Source: Thermococcus radiotolerans (GTDB lineage: Archaea > Methanobacteriota_B > Thermococci > Thermococcales > Thermococcaceae). Taken from it: DNA of 64,000 nt. Under the pieces are notes generated by a model. The model was not told the origin of the DNA. It searched no databases and saw only the letters and a list, made by a program, of their open reading frames with translations. The stretch's first letter is position 1; every line of letters begins with the position of its first letter. The DNA is taken from positions 1,674,001 through 1,738,000 of the forward strand of contig NZ_CP015106.1 in assembly GCF_002214565.1 (NCBI RefSeq). Reading direction: 5' to 3'. Both the position numbers and the translations under genes were made by a program. This document shows positions 18,639 through 28,864 of the stretch, piece by piece.

Positions 18639-19442
18639 ATGTCCCTCCGGGTGTTGGTCTTCGATAGCGGCGACCCAAAGTTCGACCTGGCCTTTGAGGA
18701 GGCCCTGGCCAGATTGCGGGCTAGGGATAAGATTCCCGACACCCTTCGCCTCTGGAGGACTTCACGCTCCGTCGTTCTCGGGTACTTCAGAAGCGCCGAG
18801 GAGGACGTCAATCTCGACGTGGCCAGTAATGAGGGAATCCCCCTCATCAGGCGCTTCAGCGGTGGGGGTACCGTGTACCTAGACCGGGGCTGCGTGAACT
18901 ACTCAATAGTCATGAAGAGAGAGGTTGAGTTCCCCATATCGTACCTCTACGGGACCGTCCTCCAGGGCACGCTCACCGCCCTCGAGTCCCTGGGCCTCTC
19001 CCCTTACCTCAGGAACACGAACGACGTTGTCGTGAACGGAAGAAAGGTTTCGGGAACCGCCGCGAGCATCAGGTGGGGTGTTCTCTTTCTACACGGCTCT
19101 GTCCTGGTTGATGCGGATTTAATGACACTCCGGGCTCTACTCAGGGTCCCGGGGAGACTCAAGCCCTCCGTTGACCCTGTGAAGTACCGCGTGGCAAACC
19201 TCCTTGAGTTCGTTGAGGGACTCGATGTGGATAGTGTCATGGATGCTCTGATTGGAGGGTATTCCAAGGTGCTTTCGGAGGACGCTTACGTGGATGAGCC
19301 GTCGAAGGAGGAGCTTGACGTTGCCAGGATTCTCTACCGCTTCAAGTACTCTCACGAAGAATGGAACCTCAGGCTCCCCTCATCTCATCTGGCGAGTATT
19401 GAGGAAAACGTAGAAACGGAACTGAGAGGGCTGGGCCTCTAA
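18639..19442 (+). CDS. lplA: Lipoate-protein ligase A family protein
   Basis: Attaches lipoyl groups (from free lipoate and ATP, or by transfer) to the lysine of lipoyl domains. The 267-residue length matches the catalytic domain alone, as in Thermoplasma LplA, which needs a separate LplB accessory protein; none is seen here. Motifs are RRFSGGGTVYLDRGCVNYS near residue 68 and the lysine motif NGRKVSGTAA. A TATA-like CTTTATAG at 18609-18616 lies about 25 bases before the ATG, so the message is probably leaderless. The gene ends in a 4-base convergent overlap with the AcoX-like gene. Its likely clients are the two free lipoyl-domain proteins at 21254 and 26483. Confidence 0.92.
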   Translation: MSLRVLVFDSGDPKFDLAFEEALARLRARDKIPDTLRLWRTSRSVVLGYFRSAEEDVNLDVASNEGIPLIRRFSGGGTVYLDRGCVNYSIVMKREVEFPISYLYGTVLQGTLTALESLGLSPYLRNTNDVVVNGRKVSGTAASIRWGVLFLHGSVLVDADLMTLRALLRVPGRLKPSVDPVKYRVANLLEFVEGLDVDSVMDALIGGYSKVLSEDAYVDEPSKEELDVARILYRFKYSHEEWNLRLPSSHLASIEENVETELRGLGL

Positions 19443-20419
19443 CCCTCGAAGAAACCCCTCTCCGCCGCGAGCCTGAGGGTTTTCCTGTAGTCTATCACCC
19501 TCGGTCCCGTTCTTGTGAGTCTGGCGGTTATCTCGCCCTCCATCTCGACCTCCCTCTCGCCATCGAGGGCGAAGAGGGTTGGAGTGGTGCGTATCTCAAT
19601 CTCCTCCCCGAGGGCTACCTCCCTGACCTCACCTATAAGAACCCGCTTGAAGACTCCCGGTGCTATCGGAGCCTTTACCGGTCTGCCCTTTCCTATCTCA
19701 AGATACAGCCCGAAATCGTCCTCCTCCTTTACCTCCCTTAGGATTCCGGCGATGGAGCTGAGTCCGATGTTTGAGGGGGAGCAACGGCTGACCACGAGTT
19801 CCCGGAGATACTCCGGCTTCCACACGGCCTTTGAGCCGACAAAGGAGTGAGTCGTTGCGGCCGCGTCTACCAGGGCTATGTCCCTCAGCTCGCCGTTTTC
19901 GAAGAGCTCTATCCTCTTCGTCCTGTAGGTTCCTTCCTCCGGCGTTACGACTCCGGTCGCTATCGCCGCCACGGCTTCTCCGGCTATCGTGGCCTCTATC
20001 ATGTATGGGAAGACGTTGTTGGTTCCAGTGGAGATGGGCATTATCGGCGTGTCCCCGCAGGCCTTCGCCACTATCCTGTTGGTTCCATCGCCACCTATCA
20101 CCACGATGACCGACGCCTCCTCCCTGAGGTTTTCGGCCGCTTTGTAGGTGTCGCGCCAGTCCCCGAATATCTTCATATCCATCAGCTCGACCTCGATGCT
20201 CAGGTGCTCCTCCACGGCCCGCTTTGCGCCGGGGATTATCCCGAAGGTCTCGGGCATGCCGATTACCTTCTCCACCCCCAGCTCCTGGAGTATAAGGAGG
20301 AGCCTCTCGACTATGCTGACCTTCTCCATGTTGTCGAAGACGCTGGCGTGGGCGACCAGCCGCCTTATGTCCCTTCCGGATTCCGGATTGGCTATTATCC
20401 CGACGACTCCTTTCTTCAT
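19439..20419 (-). CDS. AcoX-like protein of the ATP-NAD kinase superfamily
   Basis: A 326-residue protein of the COG3199 (ATP-NAD/AcoX kinase) family. The N-terminus GVVGIIANPESGRDIRRLV and the glycine-rich VIVVIGGDGTNRIV are the nucleotide-kinase motifs, and MPISTGTNNVFP follows as in NAD and diacylglycerol kinases. In bacteria, acoX is found in acetoin dehydrogenase operons, and its function there is unknown. Here it is third in a leftward operon after the lipoyl-domain protein and E2, 11 bases behind E2. The context supports AcoX over housekeeping NAD kinase, which is normally encoded elsewhere in these genomes; the substrate is unproven. Confidence 0.87.
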   Translation of the reverse strand: MKKGVVGIIANPESGRDIRRLVAHASVFDNMEKVSIVERLLLILQELGVEKVIGMPETFGIIPGAKRAVEEHLSIEVELMDMKIFGDWRDTYKAAENLREEASVIVVIGGDGTNRIVAKACGDTPIMPISTGTNNVFPYMIEATIAGEAVAAIATGVVTPEEGTYRTKRIELFENGELRDIALVDAAATTHSFVGSKAVWKPEYLRELVVSRCSPSNIGLSSIAGILREVKEEDDFGLYLEIGKGRPVKAPIAPGVFKRVLIGEVREVALGEEIEIRTTPTLFALDGEREVEMEGEITARLTRTGPRVIDYRKTLRLAAERGFFEG

Positions 20420-20430
20420 GCTTCAGCCCC

Positions 20431-21249
20431 TCACAGGTCTCCGAAGACTTCTTCGGGGTTTTCCAGGTAGTGCTTCACCCGTCCCAAGAACCTCGCTGCT
20501 GGAGCACCGTCTATCGCCCTGTGGTCGAAGCTCAGGGACAGGGTCATGACCCTGGCCTTTTTTATCTCTCCGTTCCTCACAACCGGTTTTTCGGCTATTC
20601 TATTGAGGCCCAGAATCGCCACTTGGGGTGGGTTTATTATCGGGGTGAACGAGTCAACCTCCAGCATTCCCAGGTTCGTGACCGTGAAGGTCCCCCCGAC
20701 GAAGTCCTTTTCCTTCAGGAGGCCCTTCTTCGTCCGCTCCACGAGGTCGGAGTACTCATCGAGAAGTTCCTCAAGGCTTTTCTCGTCAACGTTCCTGATT
20801 ACCGGAGTTATCAGTCCTATCGGGCTGTCTATGGCCACATTTATGTTGATGTCGTCGTAAACCGTTATCTTGTCCCCGTCCATCGTTGCGTTCACGTCTA
20901 TGAAGTCCCTGATTGCCTTTGCCATGCACTTCAGCATGAGCACGGTGTAGGAGGGCTTCCTCCCGAGCTTTTCGGTAAGTTTTTTTCTCATCTCAACGAG
21001 CCCGTCCATCTCCACCTCCATGTTGATTGTGACGTGGACTGCCTCTCGGTAGCTCTCGGAGAGCCTTCCCGCTATCACCTTCCTTATCCCGATGAGCTTG
21101 ACCTCTCTCAGAACCTTCGGGTAGAAGTGCTCTTTGATGTACCTCTCAAGGTCTTCGAGGGTTACCTCGCCACCCGGTCCGGAGCCCTCAAGCTTCGAGA
21201 GGTCTATCTCGTACTGCTCCGCTATCATCCTGACCTCTTCGTCCGTCAT
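20431..21249 (-). CDS. 2-oxoacid dehydrogenase E2 acyltransferase core (peripheral-subunit-binding plus catalytic domain, no lipoyl domain)
   Basis: A 272-residue E2 core that would transfer the acyl group from a lipoyl arm to coenzyme A. Residues 1-38 form a subunit-binding domain (YEIDLSKLEGSGPGGEVT), the site that holds E1 or E3. The catalytic domain follows, with LIGIRKVIAGRLSESYREAV, SPIGLITPVIRN and the active-site histidine motif SFDHRAIDG near residue 242. No lipoyl domain or its Pro/Ala linker is present. That domain is encoded by the separate gene just upstream, whose stop is 4 bases before this start. It assembles as 24-mer or 60-mer cores in other organisms. Confidence 0.94.
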   Translation of the reverse strand: MTDEEVRMIAEQYEIDLSKLEGSGPGGEVTLEDLERYIKEHFYPKVLREVKLIGIRKVIAGRLSESYREAVHVTINMEVEMDGLVEMRKKLTEKLGRKPSYTVLMLKCMAKAIRDFIDVNATMDGDKITVYDDININVAIDSPIGLITPVIRNVDEKSLEELLDEYSDLVERTKKGLLKEKDFVGGTFTVTNLGMLEVDSFTPIINPPQVAILGLNRIAEKPVVRNGEIKKARVMTLSLSFDHRAIDGAPAARFLGRVKHYLENPEEVFGDL

Positions 21250-21253
21250 GCGA

Positions 21254-21499
21254 TCACTCTTCCGCCTCTATTATGGCTATAACCTCCCCGACGGGCACTT
21301 CTGCACCCACGTCGTGGAGTATCTCCACCAGGCGGCCGTCTTCGGGTGCCTCTATCTCACTGGTGAGCTTCTCGGACTGAACTACCGCGATGACCTCTCC
21401 TTTCTTGACGTGTTCACCGGCTTTCTTTTTCCATTCCACGATTTCTCCCTTCTTCATGGTCATGCCGAGCTTCGGCATTATTACGTTTACTTTTTTCAT
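21254..21499 (-). CDS. Free-standing lipoyl-domain protein 1
   Basis: An 81-residue biotinyl/lipoyl carrier domain: VIMPKLGMTMKKGEIVEW, then the modified lysine K44 in the turn QSEKLTSEIEAP, then the closing repeat VGAEVPVGEVIAIIE. The acidic residue before the lysine (SEK) is usual for lipoyl rather than biotinyl domains (MKM). It is the first gene of a leftward operon with E2 and AcoX, and it replaces the N-terminal lipoyl domain normally fused to E2. The start follows GGAGGTAATATT. A TATA element at about 21550-21558 on this strand fits a 30-base leader. Confidence 0.92.
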   Translation of the reverse strand: MKKVNVIMPKLGMTMKKGEIVEWKKKAGEHVKKGEVIAVVQSEKLTSEIEAPEDGRLVEILHDVGAEVPVGEVIAIIEAEE

Positions 21500-21660
21500 A
21501 ATATTACCTCCAAAATTTACAGATTACAAGGGCAATAGCTGGATTAACCTATATAATACTTGCGAAATACGTATATAGAGGTTTTTTCATTAGTATAGTG
21601 TTCAAATCTCTTCTTGGAAATAACCTGGTGAGTAATCTACGTTTTGAAGGAGGAAATGCC
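21500..21660. promoter_or_regulatory. Divergent promoter region between the two halves of the dehydrogenase cluster
   Basis: An AT-rich stretch in GC-rich surroundings. CTATATAATAC at 21549-21559 suits the leftward operon. CGTATATAG at about 21570-21578 suits the rightward one and would leave a leader of about 60 bases before the ATG at 21661. The palindrome ATACGTAT lies between them and is a possible operator. No regulator gene is encoded in the cluster. Confidence 0.5.
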
Positions 21661-22665
21661 ATGCCGGTTGAGGAAATACCTAGGGAAACCCTGCTGTGGA
21701 TGTACGAGACCATGGTGAGGATAAGGGTCCACGAGGAAAGGGTTGCGGAACTCTTCGCCCAGGGCAAGGTACCAGGCTTTGTACACCTATACGTCGGGGA
21801 GGAGGCCGTCGCCGTCGGTGTGATGGCCAACCTCCGGAGGGAGGACTTCATAACGAGCACCCACAGGGGGCACGGCCACTACATAGCCAAGGGCGGAGAC
21901 GTGAAGGCCTCGATGGCAGAGCTGTTCGGGAAGAAGACAGGAAGCGGAAAGGGAAAGGGCGGTTCGATGCACATAGCCGACCTCGACGTCGGCGAGCTGG
22001 GAGCCAACGGCATGGTTGGGGGAGGAATCCCACATGCCGTAGGCGCTGGCCTGGGAATAAAGCTCAACGGCCTCGATAACGTCGCCGTTGCCTTCTTCGG
22101 TGACGGTGCCTCGAACCAGCAGAACTTCCACGAGGGAATAAACCTCGCCGCCATCTGGAAGCTGCCCGTTGTATTCGTCTGTGAGAACAACCAGTACCAG
22201 ATATCCCTCTCCTACGACAAACAGCAGACGATAAAGAGCGTGGCCGAGAGGGCCAAAGCCTATGGAATCCCCGGTGTAAGCGTTGACGGACAGGACGTTC
22301 TGGCGGTCTACGAAGTCGCCAAGGAGGCCATCGAACGCGCCAGAAGGGGCGAGGGCCCCACCCTGATAGAGGCCAAGACCTACAGGTTCAGGGGCCATTT
22401 CGAGGGCGACCCGCAGGTCTACAGGTCAAAGGAGGAAGTAGAGTGGTGGAAGAAGAACAAGGACCCTATAAAGCTCTTCGAAGAGAAGCTTCTCGCCAAG
22501 GGGATCGCCACGAGAGAAGAGCTCGATGCAATCTGGGAGAAGGCCCGGAAGGAAATCGAGGAGGCAGTTAAGTTCGCTGAAGAAAGCCCGTGGCCGTCGA
22601 AGGAGGAGCTCCTTGAAGACGTCTTCTCCACGCCCACCAAGGGGGTGCTCGTATGGCAGTGGTGA
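21661..22665 (+). CDS. Thiamine-diphosphate dehydrogenase E1 alpha subunit 1 (acetoin dehydrogenase AcoA-like)
   Basis: A 334-residue E1 alpha that binds thiamine diphosphate and decarboxylates a 2-oxoacid or cleaves acetoin. The diphosphate/Mg motif begins FFGDGASNQQNFHEG and closes with VFVCENN. The substrate-side motif is STHRGHGHYIAKG, followed by GKGGSMHIAD. These match my recollection of bacterial AcoA more than pyruvate or branched-chain E1 alpha; that is a memory-based judgement. The frame opens at 21598, but the ATG at 21661 is preceded by GGAGG at 21649-21653. The next gene, E1 beta, overlaps the 3' end by 13 bases. Confidence 0.93.
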   Translation: MPVEEIPRETLLWMYETMVRIRVHEERVAELFAQGKVPGFVHLYVGEEAVAVGVMANLRREDFITSTHRGHGHYIAKGGDVKASMAELFGKKTGSGKGKGGSMHIADLDVGELGANGMVGGGIPHAVGAGLGIKLNGLDNVAVAFFGDGASNQQNFHEGINLAAIWKLPVVFVCENNQYQISLSYDKQQTIKSVAERAKAYGIPGVSVDGQDVLAVYEVAKEAIERARRGEGPTLIEAKTYRFRGHFEGDPQVYRSKEEVEWWKKNKDPIKLFEEKLLAKGIATREELDAIWEKARKEIEEAVKFAEESPWPSKEELLEDVFSTPTKGVLVWQW

Positions 22666-23636
22666 GGGAGATAACCTTCGCACAGGCGCTCAACGAGGCC
22701 TTGGACTACGAGATGGGAAAGGATGAAAAGGTCGTCGTGATGGGCGAGGACGTCGGACTCTACGGGGGAATCTACGGGGTGACGGCTGGGCTCTACGAGA
22801 AGTACGGGCCCGAGAGGGTCAGGGACACACCGATAGCAGAGAGCGGCTTCGTGGGCACCGCGGTTGGCGCCGCGGCGACGGGTCTGCTGAGGCCGGTCGT
22901 GGAGCTGATGTTCATAGACTTCCTCGGAGTTACCTATGACCAGATATACAACCAGGCCGCGAAGATGAGGTACATGTTCGGCGGAAAGGCGAGGATACCC
23001 ATGGTTCTCAGAACAACGTGCGGTGCTGGCTTCTCAGCCGCTGCCCAGCACTCTCAGTCGCTCCATGCCCTCTTCATCCATGTTCCTGGACTCAAGGTTG
23101 TCATGCCGTCCACGCCCTACGATGCGAAGGGACTGCTGATCTCGGCGATAGAGGACGACGATCCGGTAATATTCATAGAGCACAAGGGGCTCTACGCGGT
23201 TAAGGGTCCGGTTCCGGAGGAGCCCTACTCGATACCCCTCGGCGAGGCGGACGTGAAGAGGGAAGGAAAGGACGTGACGATAGTGGCAACGGCCGCAATG
23301 GTCCACAAGTCCTTGGAAGTTGCAGAGAAGCTCGCGGAGGAAGGTGTGAGCGTCGAGGTCGTTGACCCACGGTCGCTTGTACCCCTAGACACAGACACTA
23401 TCTTGAACTCCATCAAGAAGACCGGAAGGCTGGTCGTTGTTGACGAGGGCTACCCGAGGGCGGGCTTCGCCACGGACATAGCGGCACTCGCCGCCAGCAG
23501 GGCCTTTGAGCACCTGAAGGCGCCGGTCAAGATAATCACACCGCCGGCGACCCCCGTTCCATTCAGCCCAGCCCTCGAAAACGAGTGGATACCCTCCGCA
23601 GAGAGAATAGAGAACGCGGTCAGGGAGGTTCTCTGA
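22653..23636 (+). CDS. Thiamine-diphosphate dehydrogenase E1 beta subunit 1 (AcoB-like)
   Basis: A 327-residue E1 beta with the glutamate that activates thiamine diphosphate in VVMGEDVGLYGGIYG. Other conserved parts are RDTPIAESGFVGTAVGAAA, AAQHSQSLHALFIHVPGLKV and VVDPRSLVPLDTDTI. It overlaps the E1 alpha gene by 13 bases and starts after GGGGGTGCTCGT, so the two subunits are translated together as a heterotetramer. A run of eight T residues just after the stop (about 23642-23650) may weaken transcription into the next gene. Confidence 0.93.
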   Translation: MAVVREITFAQALNEALDYEMGKDEKVVVMGEDVGLYGGIYGVTAGLYEKYGPERVRDTPIAESGFVGTAVGAAATGLLRPVVELMFIDFLGVTYDQIYNQAAKMRYMFGGKARIPMVLRTTCGAGFSAAAQHSQSLHALFIHVPGLKVVMPSTPYDAKGLLISAIEDDDPVIFIEHKGLYAVKGPVPEEPYSIPLGEADVKREGKDVTIVATAAMVHKSLEVAEKLAEEGVSVEVVDPRSLVPLDTDTILNSIKKTGRLVVVDEGYPRAGFATDIAALAASRAFEHLKAPVKIITPPATPVPFSPALENEWIPSAERIENAVREVL

Positions 23637-23663: not shown

Positions 23664-23966
23664 ATGCTGAAGGCCGCTTTCATGTTCGTTGCACCTGAAG
23701 CAAACCCTAGAGAGCACAGAGCGATCATTAGGACTCCAATGGTGGAACTCCACGTTGTCGGCGTCAAAAACTACGACGAGGCCTGTGAAGTTGCAAAAAA
23801 GCTCGTTGAGGATGGGATTGCGGCAATAGAGCTGTGCGGAGGTTTTGGTCATATCGGTGTTGCCAGAGTCGTTGAGGCCGTAGGAGGAAAGGTTCCTGTG
23901 GGGGTCGTGAGGTTCGACGTTCACCCCGGTTTGGAGGGCAAAAGCGGGGATAGTATCTTCGGGTGA
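23664..23966 (+). CDS. DUF6506-like small protein
   Basis: A 100-residue soluble protein with VELHVVGVKNYDEACEVAKK, then GIAAIELCGGFGHIGVAR, and an end GGKVPVGVVRFDVHPG. I believe it belongs to DUF6506, small proteins of unknown function. The single cysteine lies in a Gly-rich turn that could bind a ligand. It begins 28 bases after E1 beta behind GGAGGCGAAACT and shares 4 bases with the OsmC-like gene that follows. Its position between two E1 pairs suggests a role linked to the complex or its substrate; no function is known. Confidence 0.82.
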   Translation: MLKAAFMFVAPEANPREHRAIIRTPMVELHVVGVKNYDEACEVAKKLVEDGIAAIELCGGFGHIGVARVVEAVGGKVPVGVVRFDVHPGLEGKSGDSIFG

Positions 23967-24409
23967 TAGTCTTGGAGGAATGGACGTTCTACGTAACCGG
24001 GAAGTCCCTCTCGGACACGAAACTGCTCGCGAAGGTCAGGGATTTTGAGGTTCTCGTTGACGAACCCGCCGAGATAGGGGGAACGGATGAGGGGCCGAAT
24101 CCCGTCGAGTACCTCCTCGTGGCGTTGGCTGGCTGCCTAAACGTTACCATCAGGGGAATCGCAGGGGAGAAAGGGATATCCGTGGAGTCGCTCGAGCTGG
24201 CCATCACCGGAAAGCTGAACCCTGCAAAGTTCCAGGGTGTCTCAGAAGAGGGACGTGCAGGCTTCACCGAAGTGACGGTCTCGGTTTATCTGAAGACCGA
24301 TGCCCCTAAGGAAAAGATTGAGGAGCTTTTGAAGGAAGTAGAGGAGCGCTGTCCTGTCACTGACAACCTAAAAAACAAAACTCCGATTCGGATAGTGCTG
24401 AAGGAGTGA
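23963..24409 (+). CDS. OsmC/Ohr-family peroxiredoxin-like protein
   Basis: A protein of up to 148 residues with the OsmC fold: GPNPVEYLLVALAGCLNVT carries the first cysteine and ERCPVTDNL the second, spaced as in OsmC/Ohr thiol peroxidases that reduce organic hydroperoxides. GTG at 23963 overlaps the previous stop (GTGA). A TTG at 23972, 4 bases after GGTGAT, is an equally good start and would remove three residues. Lipoylated proteins are known reductants of bacterial Ohr, so its place inside a lipoyl-dependent cluster may be functional; that is inference. Confidence 0.88.
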   Translation: MIVLEEWTFYVTGKSLSDTKLLAKVRDFEVLVDEPAEIGGTDEGPNPVEYLLVALAGCLNVTIRGIAGEKGISVESLELAITGKLNPAKFQGVSEEGRAGFTEVTVSVYLKTDAPKEKIEELLKEVEERCPVTDNLKNKTPIRIVLKE

Positions 24410-24463: not shown

Positions 24464-25468
24464 ATGGGAGTTGAGGAGATACCTAAGGAAACCCTGCTGG
24501 AGATATACAGGACTATGCACAAGATTAGGACGTACGAAGAGACGCTGGCGAAGTGGTACTACGAGGGAAAGAGTCCGCGCTTTGACATCTCGGCCGGTCC
24601 GATTCCCGGAGAGCTACATCTATCCTCAGGTCAGGAGTCGGCGGCCGTTGGCGTGTGCGTACACCTCAAGGACGAAGATGCGGTTATAGGAACCCACAGG
24701 GCCCACCACTTCGCGATAGCGAAGGGGGTCGACCTGAAGAAGATGACGGCCGAGATATTCGGCAAGGCCACCGGCCTATCGGGGGGCAAGGGCGGCCACA
24801 TGCACCTCTTTGACGCGGCCAAAAACTTCAGCTGTAGCGGTATAGTCGGTGCGAGCTTCCCGCAGGCCGTTGGGGTTGGCATCGCGGCCAAGCTGAAGGG
24901 TGAGGACTACGTGGCGGTTGCAGTCGGCGGCGATGGGGCGGCCAACCAGGGAACTTTCCACGAGGCGCTCAACCTTGCAGCCGTCTGGAAGCTACCGGTT
25001 ATATTCCTGATAGAGGACAACGGCTGGGCGATCTCCGTTCCGAAGGACAAGTCAACGGCCGTCGCCAAGAACAGCGAGAGGGCTAAGGCCTATGGTATTC
25101 CGGGGGTCAGCGTTGACGGTGCCGATGTTATAGCGGTCTACGAAGTTGCCAAGGAGGCCGTTGAAAGGGCGAGGCGCGGAGAGGGGCCGAGCCTCATAGA
25201 GGTCAGAACGTACAGGCTTAGAGGGCACTTCGAAGGTGACCCGCAGCTCTACAGACCGAAGGAGGACTTCGAGCTGGCGAAGGAGAAGGACCCGTTGGCC
25301 AACTTTAAGAAGTTGCTGCTCGAGAAGGGCATCGCCACGGAGGAAGAGCTGGCGAGGATCGAGGAAGCGAACGAGAAGGAAGTTCAGGAGGCCATAGACT
25401 TCGCCCTCAACAGCCCGTATCCTGAGCCGGAAGAAGCTCTGAAGGGCGTTTTTGCGGGGGGTGAGTGA
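24464..25468 (+). CDS. Thiamine-diphosphate dehydrogenase E1 alpha subunit 2
   Basis: A 334-residue paralogue of the E1 alpha at 21661. The diphosphate motif starts VGGDGAANQGTFHEA and closes with FLIEDNG. The two proteins share long blocks such as RAKAYGIPGVSVDG and YEVAKEA. They differ at the substrate side: here GTHRAHHFAIAKG replaces STHRGHGHYIAKG, and a longer N-terminal stretch contains FDISAGPIPGELHLSSGQES. A different substrate is therefore likely. The start follows GGTGAGAGA. It is 54 bases after the OsmC-like gene, with a T-rich tract between. Confidence 0.93.
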   Translation: MGVEEIPKETLLEIYRTMHKIRTYEETLAKWYYEGKSPRFDISAGPIPGELHLSSGQESAAVGVCVHLKDEDAVIGTHRAHHFAIAKGVDLKKMTAEIFGKATGLSGGKGGHMHLFDAAKNFSCSGIVGASFPQAVGVGIAAKLKGEDYVAVAVGGDGAANQGTFHEALNLAAVWKLPVIFLIEDNGWAISVPKDKSTAVAKNSERAKAYGIPGVSVDGADVIAVYEVAKEAVERARRGEGPSLIEVRTYRLRGHFEGDPQLYRPKEDFELAKEKDPLANFKKLLLEKGIATEEELARIEEANEKEVQEAIDFALNSPYPEPEEALKGVFAGGE

Positions 25469-25469
25469 A

Positions 25470-26474
25470 ATGGCGAGGAAGCTTCCCATGTACAAGGCGA
25501 TAGCCGAGGCGATAGCGCAGGAAATGGAGCGCGATGAGAACGTCTTCGTTATGGGCGAGGACATCGGTGCCTACGGTGGAATCTTCGGTGCAACTAACGG
25601 GCTCCTTGAGAAGTTCGGCCCCGAGAGGGTCAGGGACACGCCTATAAGCGAATCAGCTTTCATAGGCGCCGCCCTCGGAGCCGCATCGAAGGGCATGAGG
25701 CCGATAGTCGAGCTGATGTTCGTTGACTTCTTCGGTGTGGCGATGGATCAGATATACAACCACATCGCCAAGGCGCACTACATGTCGGGCGGACAGGTTA
25801 GGATGCCCATAGTCATAACCACAGCCATCGGCGGAGGCTACAGCGACGCGGCTCAGCACTCCCAGTGCCTCTACGGTCTGTTTGCCCACGTTCCGGGACT
25901 CAAGATAGTAATTCCATCCAACTCCTACGACGCCAAGGGACTCATGATATCCTCCATACGGGACGACAATCCGGTCATGTACTTCTTCCACAAGGGACTC
26001 ATGGGGCTCGGATGGATGCCTTCCCCTGATGAAGCCGCGGTTGAAGTGCCCGAGGAGCCCTACACAGTCCCCATCGGTGAGGCCAAGGTCGTGAGGGAGG
26101 GTGACGATGTGACCATAGCGACGGTATCTCGCATGGTCTACGAGGCCCTGTGGGCGGCCGAAGAGCTCGAAAAGGACGGGATAAGCGCCGAGGTCATTGA
26201 CCTGAGAACCCTCGTTCCCCTCGATAAGGAGACCCTCGTAAACTCCGTCAGGAAGACCGGAAGGCTTCTCGTCGTGGACGAGGACTACATGAGCTACGGG
26301 ATGAGCGGCGAGATAATAGCCACCGTCGTCGAGAGGATAGGGAACGAGCTCAAAGCCCTGCCGAGGAGGATAGCCTACCCGGACGTTCCGGTTCCGTACA
26401 GCAGGGTGCTGGAGAGGTTCGTTCTTCCTGACAAGGAGAAGATAGTGAGAACAGTGAAGGACATGGTCGGGTGA
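25470..26474 (+). CDS. Thiamine-diphosphate dehydrogenase E1 beta subunit 2
   Basis: A 334-residue E1 beta that pairs with the preceding E1 alpha 2. It carries FVMGEDIGAYGGIFGATNG with the catalytic-cofactor glutamate, RDTPISESAFIGAALGAA, SDAAQHSQCLYGLFAHVPG and VIDLRTLVPLDKETL. It has an insertion relative to E1 beta 1 near FHKGLMGLGWMPSPDEAAVE. The frame opens at 25452, but the ATG at 25470 lies behind GGTGAGTGAA, which contains the upstream stop, so the pair is coupled. The stop overlaps the leader of the next lipoyl-domain gene. Confidence 0.93.
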   Translation: MARKLPMYKAIAEAIAQEMERDENVFVMGEDIGAYGGIFGATNGLLEKFGPERVRDTPISESAFIGAALGAASKGMRPIVELMFVDFFGVAMDQIYNHIAKAHYMSGGQVRMPIVITTAIGGGYSDAAQHSQCLYGLFAHVPGLKIVIPSNSYDAKGLMISSIRDDNPVMYFFHKGLMGLGWMPSPDEAAVEVPEEPYTVPIGEAKVVREGDDVTIATVSRMVYEALWAAEELEKDGISAEVIDLRTLVPLDKETLVNSVRKTGRLLVVDEDYMSYGMSGEIIATVVERIGNELKALPRRIAYPDVPVPYSRVLERFVLPDKEKIVRTVKDMVG

Positions 26475-26482
26475 GGGGCAGA

Positions 26483-26716
26483 ATGGAGGTAGAGGTCAGG
26501 GTACCCCGGACGACGAAGGAGGAAAAGACCGGCGTCCTGCTGAGCTGGTACAAGAACGATGGCGATCCCGTCGAGGAGGGCGAGGAGATAGCGGAGGTCA
26601 TGATAGAGAAAGTCACCGTGCACGTTAAGGCCCCGGCGAGCGGGAGGCTTAAGATCCTGGTGAAGGAGAACGAGGAGGTGGCTCAGGACCAGGTGATAGG
26701 CCTTATAGTGACCTGA
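26483..26716 (+). CDS. Free-standing lipoyl-domain protein 2
   Basis: A 77-residue lipoyl carrier domain. The modified lysine is K43 in EVMIEKVTVHVKAPASG, and GVLLSWYKNDGDPVEEGEEI forms the first half. It is about as divergent from lipoyl protein 1 as two families of E2 lipoyl domains are. The start at 26483 has GGGTGAGGGGCAGA before it; an in-frame GTG at 26471 overlaps the E1 beta 2 stop. It is last in the rightward operon, so each E1 pair has a lipoyl protein in its own transcript or divergent operon. A T-rich tract follows in the convergent gap. Confidence 0.9.
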   Translation: MEVEVRVPRTTKEEKTGVLLSWYKNDGDPVEEGEEIAEVMIEKVTVHVKAPASGRLKILVKENEEVAQDQVIGLIVT

Positions 26717-27495: not shown

Positions 27496-28776
27496 TCAAC
27501 CCCTCGGGTCCATCAGCCTGCCCATGAAGAGTACCGCCCCCGTTTCCCTGTCCACTATGAGGAACAGGAACGGATGGTCTGCTTTGAATACTTTGTACTC
27601 CGGCTCTTCCCCGGGTGCGGAGGCGGCCGTAATTATAACCGCCGTCGCCGCGGCCGCCTCGGTACCGTTCTCGGCAACGCTTATGAAGGTCTTGTGTATC
27701 ACGTCGCTTATGAAGAGCCTCTCGGCGTCGGTGATTCCCGAGAAGTTCGCCCCACCGCTGAAGGCCTCCCCCATGCCCATGTCGATGAGCGGCTTCTTCA
27801 GCGAGTAGCTCGCTTCAAACCTGAACTTGGGAACCGTCACGTCGACGAGCTCCGGCTTCATGCTCTCCCTGAGCTCCCGGATGAACTCCGGCGTGAGCTT
27901 TCCCTCGATGCCTGTGGGGGAGTTGTCCCGGGGCAGTATTATCAGCATACTCAGCCTTCCCCCTTCGTAGGGCATCTCGAGGGCCTGGAGCTCGTCGTTC
28001 TCGGTGTAGTTGAAGGTTCCCCTCTGGTGCATCATGGGCGCGATTACTTTTTCGCCCGAGGCGAGGGTGAAGCTCTCGTTGGCCGTGTCCCCCGGGTCGA
28101 ACCTCCTCGACCAGTTAGCCCTGAAGTATATCGCGTTGGTTATCACGAGCCTTGTGTACTCGTTCAGCACTCCTTTCTGGATGAGGTCCTTTATCCTGCC
28201 CCTCGTCCGCTCCTCGGCCCAGCTGTTTATCTCCTCCGCCGCTCCGTCCGGGTCCCTAACGAAGTCCACGTTCCTCACGTCGCCCAGGTAAAACTCCCTG
28301 ATTATCCAGAGGTACCGCTCGTTCACGGGGTAGCCCTTCTGCACCCAGAGCGCGTTGGCGGTGCTGAGGACGTAGGGCCCATTCGATGGATTAAGGGAGA
28401 GTATCAGGTATCTGAAGCCCGTCCACCTGGCCTCGTCGTCCCCGGGCAGGTGCAGGACCCTTTCCATCTCCTCCCGCGTGCTCCCGTTCGCCCCCTCGTA
28501 GGCCATCGCCAGGGCGACCTCCACGCTGTAGGGCGAGAAGAATACGTTCCCCCCATCTGCGCTCAGCTCGCGGTACAGGTCGAAGGTAAAAGCATTTAGG
28601 CCCTCAACAACCGCCTTTTCCTGCCCCTCTTTCAGAACGTCGTTCCCGGTCATCGGAGGGGTAAACGTCTCGCTTGAGGAGTTCTGGGGGATGGTTGACG
28701 TTCCGTTACCCCCGCCGGCTATGCAGCCGGACGCAACGACCATAAAGATGACCAGGACTGCCAGTACGTATCTCAT
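27496..28776 (-). CDS. Serpin-family protease inhibitor, predicted lipoprotein
   Basis: A 426-residue serpin, a suicide inhibitor of serine proteases that works by inserting its reactive loop. It has a signal peptide with lipobox VVASGC, so it is probably lipid-anchored outside the cell after a short Ser/Thr linker. The serpin fold is visible in FFSPYSVEVALAMAYEGA, VITNAIYFRANW and ADHPFLFLIVDRETGAVLFMG. The hinge ENGTEAAAATAV is that of an inhibitory serpin; counting from the hinge puts Ala at P1 and Ser at P1', which suggests an elastase- or subtilisin-like target. The ATG at 28776 follows GGTGAACCGC. Confidence 0.93.
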   Translation of the reverse strand: MRYVLAVLVIFMVVASGCIAGGGNGTSTIPQNSSSETFTPPMTGNDVLKEGQEKAVVEGLNAFTFDLYRELSADGGNVFFSPYSVEVALAMAYEGANGSTREEMERVLHLPGDDEARWTGFRYLILSLNPSNGPYVLSTANALWVQKGYPVNERYLWIIREFYLGDVRNVDFVRDPDGAAEEINSWAEERTRGRIKDLIQKGVLNEYTRLVITNAIYFRANWSRRFDPGDTANESFTLASGEKVIAPMMHQRGTFNYTENDELQALEMPYEGGRLSMLIILPRDNSPTGIEGKLTPEFIRELRESMKPELVDVTVPKFRFEASYSLKKPLIDMGMGEAFSGGANFSGITDAERLFISDVIHKTFISVAENGTEAAAATAVIITAASAPGEEPEYKVFKADHPFLFLIVDRETGAVLFMGRLMDPRG

Positions 28777-28864
28777 GCGGTTCACCCTGGGTTATGTTGG
28801 GCGGGATGATATAAATGGCTGGCGATGGTTTCAATCGCGTTTGAAACAAAATGGGAAGAGGGGA

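Follow-up and report, generated by a model that had tools for sequence, protein, structure and literature searches.

A conserved gene cluster of Thermococcus radiotolerans encodes a lipoyl-less E2 core, two free-standing lipoyl proteins and two E1 pairs

Textbooks explain channelling in 2-oxoacid dehydrogenases by the tethering of the lipoyl swinging arm. Lipoyl domains that have been relocated to E1 or E3 are known, and so are the free lipoyl carriers GcvH and LbpA. Acetoin dehydrogenase clusters typically contain AcoX, and the aco cluster of Pelobacter holds a gene of the methylmalonyl-CoA-epimerase family (PMC3543383). For Thermococcus, PMC3904984 lists the E2 in three species as well as a class of single-domain lipoyl proteins; its main text does not describe a pairing of the two. 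No description of a split lipoyl protein/E2 system was found in the open literature, subscription papers being outside the search, and a conserved E2 system with free carriers only and several E1s is, as far as this literature goes, apparently undescribed.

Here we present such a system from T. radiotolerans, located in a stretch of 64,000 nucleotides of its genome (positions 1,674,001 to 1,738,000 of NZ_CP015106.1; hereafter the window, to which all coordinates refer). It shares with the pyruvate, branched-chain and 2-oxoglutarate dehydrogenases (PDH, BCKDH, OGDH) the E2 core fold and a full set of E1, lipoyl domain, peripheral subunit-binding domain (PSBD) and 2-oxoacid_dh domain. It differs from them in that the lipoyl domain is untethered, basic residues of the PSBD are lost and a canonical E3 is absent from the genome. 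With acetoin dehydrogenase (acoXABC and acoL) it has in common an E1 alpha/beta pair, an AcoX homologue and a lipoate ligase nearby, and a lipoyl domain that fits the acetoin E2 model best; unlike there, the lipoyl domain is free, E2 consists of PSBD and acyltransferase, and neither cluster nor genome contains an E3 gene. As in the glycine cleavage H protein and LbpA the lipoyl group would be borne by a small separate protein, whereas the lipoyl proteins described here, unlike H protein, are bare E2-type domains of 81 residues.

The E2 gene (20431..21249, minus strand) encodes 272 residues. In a Pfam search residues 6-35 matched E3_binding (3.2e-8) and residues 48-269 matched 2-oxoacid_dh (3e-80), and no lipoyl domain was detected in the protein. 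Upstream of the ATG the frame stays open for 6 codons only. The DHRxxDG active-site motif of 2-oxoacid dehydrogenase E2s is present as DHRAIDG, which is invariant among 18 aligned relatives. The predicted structure resembles E2 catalytic cores in the PDB, although with a pLDDT of 69 the model serves as a fold check only. The E2 carries the sole 2-oxoacid_dh domain of the genome. LD1 (21254..21499, minus strand), whose stop lies 4 nt before the E2 start, is a free-standing lipoyl protein of 81 residues; it matches Biotin_lipoyl (7.9e-20) and consists of that domain alone. Its AlphaFold model (pLDDT 91) has an all-strand fold, in which the lipoyl lysine K44 is placed at a turn between strands 36-42 and 45-50, as in lipoyl domains. 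A sequence-only reading of this DNA had described an E2 that has the subunit-binding domain and HRAID and lacks a lipoyl domain, with an 81-residue lipoyl protein encoded 4 bases upstream. Pfam and the motif alignment agree with the former, and the coordinates, length and domain of LD1 with the latter.

The short distance between LD1 and E2 could point to a sequencing or assembly frameshift that broke a fused E2 gene; nothing else speaks for it. We searched 94 Thermococcaceae genomes for 2-oxoacid_dh and found the domain in 20, once in each. The short lipoyl-less E2 frame was present in all 20, in two cases cut by contig ends, and a lipoyl gene was located directly upstream of E2 in all 19 genomes where this region is visible, the window included. 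Stop and start are there separated by a few bases or overlap shortly, varying with the start codon that is chosen. Relative to LD1 the E2 frame is shifted by +1 in most of these genomes and by +2 in three (L031, L033, L035). Two genomes from outside the family, a Thermotoga MAG (L073) and one of Thermoproteota (L174), have both genes in the same frame with a stop codon between them. In fused E2s tens of residues link the lipoyl domain with the PSBD, whereas a hypothetical fusion at this junction would have almost no linker. We therefore give a broken gene practically no chance: the junction error restoring one fused frame, which the sequence-only reading had named as fatal to the split, is ruled out by the conserved separation in relatives and the differing frame offsets. 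Across the E2-bearing Thermococcaceae species, identity to the window copy is 76-98% for E2 and 71-96% for LD1.

Divergent from LD1 and E2, on the plus strand, follow E1 alpha (21598..22665; E1_dh, 2.9e-97) and E1 beta (22653..23636; Transket_pyr and Transketolase_C) of a first pair, a DUF6506 protein (23664..23966; 5.8e-40), which is a conserved member found in most related clusters, and an OsmC-like protein (23963..24409; OsmC, 6.3e-25), found in some of them only. A second pair comes next, again E1 alpha (24464..25468; E1_dh, 1e-88) and E1 beta (25452..26474; Transket_pyr and Transketolase_C), so that two E1 pairs with strong matches to thiamine-diphosphate enzyme domains are present. The start of a second free-standing lipoyl protein, LD2 (26471..26716, plus strand; 81 residues; Biotin_lipoyl, 1.4e-13), overlaps the stop of the second E1 beta. 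On the other side of E2 are an AcoX-like, NAD-kinase-related protein (19439..20419, minus strand; NAD_kinase, 4e-10) and the catalytic part of a lipoate-protein ligase, LplA (18639..19442, plus strand; LplA-B_cat, 5.9e-44). The genome thus holds one E2, two E1 pairs and two free lipoyl proteins, one beside or after each pair. The layout is kept in relatives, with LD2 in the equivalent position, and in G084 (L032) a third lipoyl protein and a third E1 pair still accompany a single E2.

The ligase is the second LplA copy of the genome. In 19 of the 20 E2-bearing Thermococcaceae genomes a ligase of this type shares a contig with E2, and in the remaining one, which is fragmented, it lies on a different contig; among Thermococcaceae genomes without E2 a second strong LplA is rare. 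We infer from these sequences that the cluster LplA is probably dedicated to lipoylating the carriers of the cluster. A match to the Lpl C-terminal domain lies elsewhere in the genome, outside the cluster.

Several variations were seen around this common layout. A Lin0512-family gene is situated between E2 and AcoX in several relatives; it is missing from the window (20419-20431) and from the closest relatives (L039, L041, L046). At L032:1056-6240 genes of a TRAP transporter are enclosed by the third lipoyl protein and E1 pair, which suggests that an organic acid is taken up as substrate. In G016 (L046) E1 pair 1 is absent, the second E1 beta is truncated and LplA is broken, while LD1, E2 and LD2 remain; this cluster seems to be decaying. 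A glyoxalase-fold protein is encoded between the E1 genes and DUF6506 at L035:12462-14109 and at the equivalent site in L034, L043, L045 and L047, and in these five Thermococcaceae clusters it is accompanied by a membrane protein without Pfam match. This glyoxalase-fold gene is comparable to the methylmalonyl-CoA-epimerase-family gene of the Pelobacter aco cluster; the pair of proteins is absent from the cluster in the window. Further downstream, at 27496-28785, is an ORF of 429 residues that by eye resembles serpin-family protease inhibitors and is near the cluster in three relatives too.

Both lipoyl proteins are bare lipoyl domains without an extra docking segment. LD2 keeps the EK context of the lipoyl lysine, and E43-K44 was invariant in 29 LD1/LD2 sequences. 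The best matches of both are E2-type lipoyl domains; to the full GCV_H fold (about 120-130 aa) the 81-residue LD1 shows a match of the shared core only, with 24 bits. Nowhere in the system was a lipoyl domain found tethered to E2, E1 or E3; the domains occur as separate proteins only. Five frames of the genome gave biotin/lipoyl matches, namely LD1, LD2 and frames of 605, 164 and 140 residues, of which by score and size we judged the first two to be of biotin type and, by its size, the 140-residue frame to be of GcvH type. The presence of this GcvH-size protein, together with LbpA, a free lipoyl carrier of sulfur oxidation (PMC6067878), would fit carriers of the H or LbpA kind that serve another process, the lipoyl-less E2 working differently or being a relic. 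We consider this very unlikely, since in archaea and bacteria alike the lipoyl genes adjoin those of E2 or E1, the proteins match E2-type lipoyl domains best and the active-site residues of E2 are invariant.

By analogy with H protein it is plausible that the lipoyl protein diffuses freely. The split might alternatively exist at the level of the genes only, with LD1 and LD2 bound tightly and non-covalently to E2 or E1 beta and channelling little changed. LD1 and E2 are indeed adjacent and closely spaced, LD2 overlaps E1 beta 2 as would be expected of partners made together, and E2 still has a PSBD. However, no docking segment has been added to the two 81-residue domains, and a single E2 gene serves two or three lipoyl proteins. 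We regard such a non-covalent complex as unlikely, though less so than carriers for another process.

Outside Thermococcaceae, a GTDB scan for the same E2 type identified it in Desulfurococcales (L070, L080), Fervidicoccus (L078) and a Thermoprotei MAG (L079), and among bacteria in a Thermotoga MAG (L073), Coprothermobacter (L076, L077) and an unclassified bacterium (L072). None of these relatives has a fused lipoyl domain (the left flank of L078 is missing), and the gene company is similar. A maximum-likelihood tree was built from 58 catalytic domains; in it 17 of the split E2s form one supported clade (97/90), the neighbours of which are archaeal E2s, mostly fused. The simplest reading of these sequences would be one origin followed by transfer among thermophilic archaea and bacteria. 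Beside this E2 only E1-1/LD1 was found in L073 and only the E1-2/LD2 type in L070, L076 and L077, some of the contigs being short. As these clusters hold only one type, either E1/LD pair is suggested to work with this E2.

Acyltransferases lacking both lipoyl domain and PSBD were found beside a free lipoyl protein and an E1 pair at L177:2231-3179, L178:4754-5755 and L183:5060-5992, in genomes that we judge to be Sulfolobales-like (G229, G205, G259). They resemble the window system in that the lipoyl domain is encoded apart from the acyltransferase and next to E1 genes, and differ from the window E2 in having no subunit-binding domain. In the E2 tree they fall elsewhere than the split clade, from which it follows that lipoyl detachment occurred more than once. 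At L179:1562-6093, in a Thermoproteota genome with long contigs, an acyltransferase-only E2 has as neighbours homologues of E1 pair 2, a weak homologue of AcoX and a lipoyl protein, which looks like another detachment. Further acyltransferase-only homologues of 218-266 aa were seen in L180, L181, L182 and L184; no lipoyl or E1 gene was found nearby.

The PSBD of the split clade was aligned with that of fused E2s, mostly archaeal, and of the Bacillus stearothermophilus E2 (3duf_I). In the split clade the first arginine (chain index 136) is retained, whereas basic docking residues are lost at three positions. Index 137 is basic in 25 of 25 fused and in 0 of 25 split sequences; index 140 is basic in 18 of 26 fused and acidic in 23 of 25 split ones, and index 157 basic in 22 of 26 and acidic in 23 of 25, respectively. 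The split sequences are closely related, so these counts represent one evolutionary change seen many times and not many events. In B. stearothermophilus, residues of this surface make the salt bridges to E3 and E1. The substitutions fit a split-clade PSBD that would no longer dock a standard E3.

A canonical E3 with the CxxxxC disulfide was not found in the complete T. radiotolerans genome, either with the lipoamide_DH, Pyr_redox_2 and Pyr_redox_dim profiles or with an active-site codon pattern. The best lipoamide-dehydrogenase match scored 147 bits, the cut-off being 409, and at the site of the E3 CxxxxC the three proteins with the dimerisation domain have just one redox cysteine. The codon pattern occurred no more often than its reversed control, and none of its matches coincided with one to Pyr_redox_2. 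None of the 94 Thermococcaceae genomes reached the family cut-off, and in 13 of the 20 E2-bearing ones, 8 of them at least 95% complete, nothing rose above the background E3 match. Some Thermococcaceae carry a stronger relative, with up to 402 bits. Those of L081-L090 combine the disulfide GTCVNxGC with a C-terminal PCC pair and are presumably mercuric reductases; matches of 446 aa are present in G075, G079 and G084. By eye no E3 was recognised among the ORFs of the relatives' clusters. Outside Thermococcaceae a strong E3 match was absent in G094, G097, G100, G101 and G232, whereas G095, G096 and G099 hold this E2 type and an E3 in the same genome. A rule by which a split E2 implies the absence of E3 was therefore rejected. 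E3 is also present in G229 and G205, whose E2 is acyltransferase-only. The T. radiotolerans genome encodes a thioredoxin-reductase-like protein with CATC, which is a candidate for the re-oxidant of the dihydrolipoyl group.

Of the sequence-only reading, the split between lipoyl protein and acyltransferase core stands and is conserved, while the second lipoyl protein with its E1 pair and the sharing of a single E2 had gone unnoticed. Together with the absent E3 and the altered PSBD these missed parts strengthen the case and alter what it means.

Judged from homologues, the most likely substrate would be acetoin or a short 2-oxoacid. The first E1 alpha is 56% identical to that of an Enterococcus operon containing lpdA and 2,3-butanediol dehydrogenase. 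The AcoX homologue near the E1 genes of the cluster shares about 38% identity with homologues on plasmids, of which one belongs to an acetoin dehydrogenase operon. In Caballeronia the AcoX homologue is accompanied by E1 genes, a lipoate ligase and an acetoin E2. Acetoin is not secure, because the nearest solved E1 structures are pyruvate dehydrogenases.

Taking this together, we think it rather probable that the cluster encodes an aco-type acetoin or 2-oxoacid dehydrogenase, whose single E2 core is shared by interchangeable pairs of E1 and lipoyl carrier and whose re-oxidation proceeds without a docked E3. Each E1 pair would decarboxylate a 2-oxoacid or cleave acetoin on thiamine diphosphate and acylate its own lipoyl protein, pair 1 LD1 and pair 2 LD2, after lipoylation of the carriers by the cluster-encoded ligase. 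Isolated lipoyl domains are substrates of E1 while free lipoic acid is not (PMC6270654), which makes acylation of a free lipoyl protein chemically reasonable. The acyl-lipoyl protein would then move to the single lipoyl-less E2 core, where the acyl group would be transferred to CoA. Re-oxidation of the dihydrolipoyl protein would take place away from the complex and not by a canonical E2-docked E3; a thioredoxin-reductase-type or other disulfide flavoprotein, common to the glycine cleavage H protein, would be the leading re-oxidant. The freed carrier would let one E2 serve several E1 modules. Only tentatively do we propose an E3-independent system as a whole, in which the E1s charge their own diffusible lipoyl proteins, E2 is shared, an undocked disulfide oxidoreductase, which may be thioredoxin reductase, or another acceptor takes the electrons, and the cassette has been transferred between hyperthermophilic archaea and thermophilic bacteria; this is possible rather than probable.

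The free lipoyl proteins of Thermococcus and its archaeal and bacterial relatives give the textbook rule of tethering a conserved, putative exception. In Thermococcaceae they also draw attention to the re-oxidation of lipoyl carriers, the H protein of glycine cleavage among them. A natural system with an untethered arm makes the need for tethering testable with native parts, and it hints at how several E1s can share a single E2.
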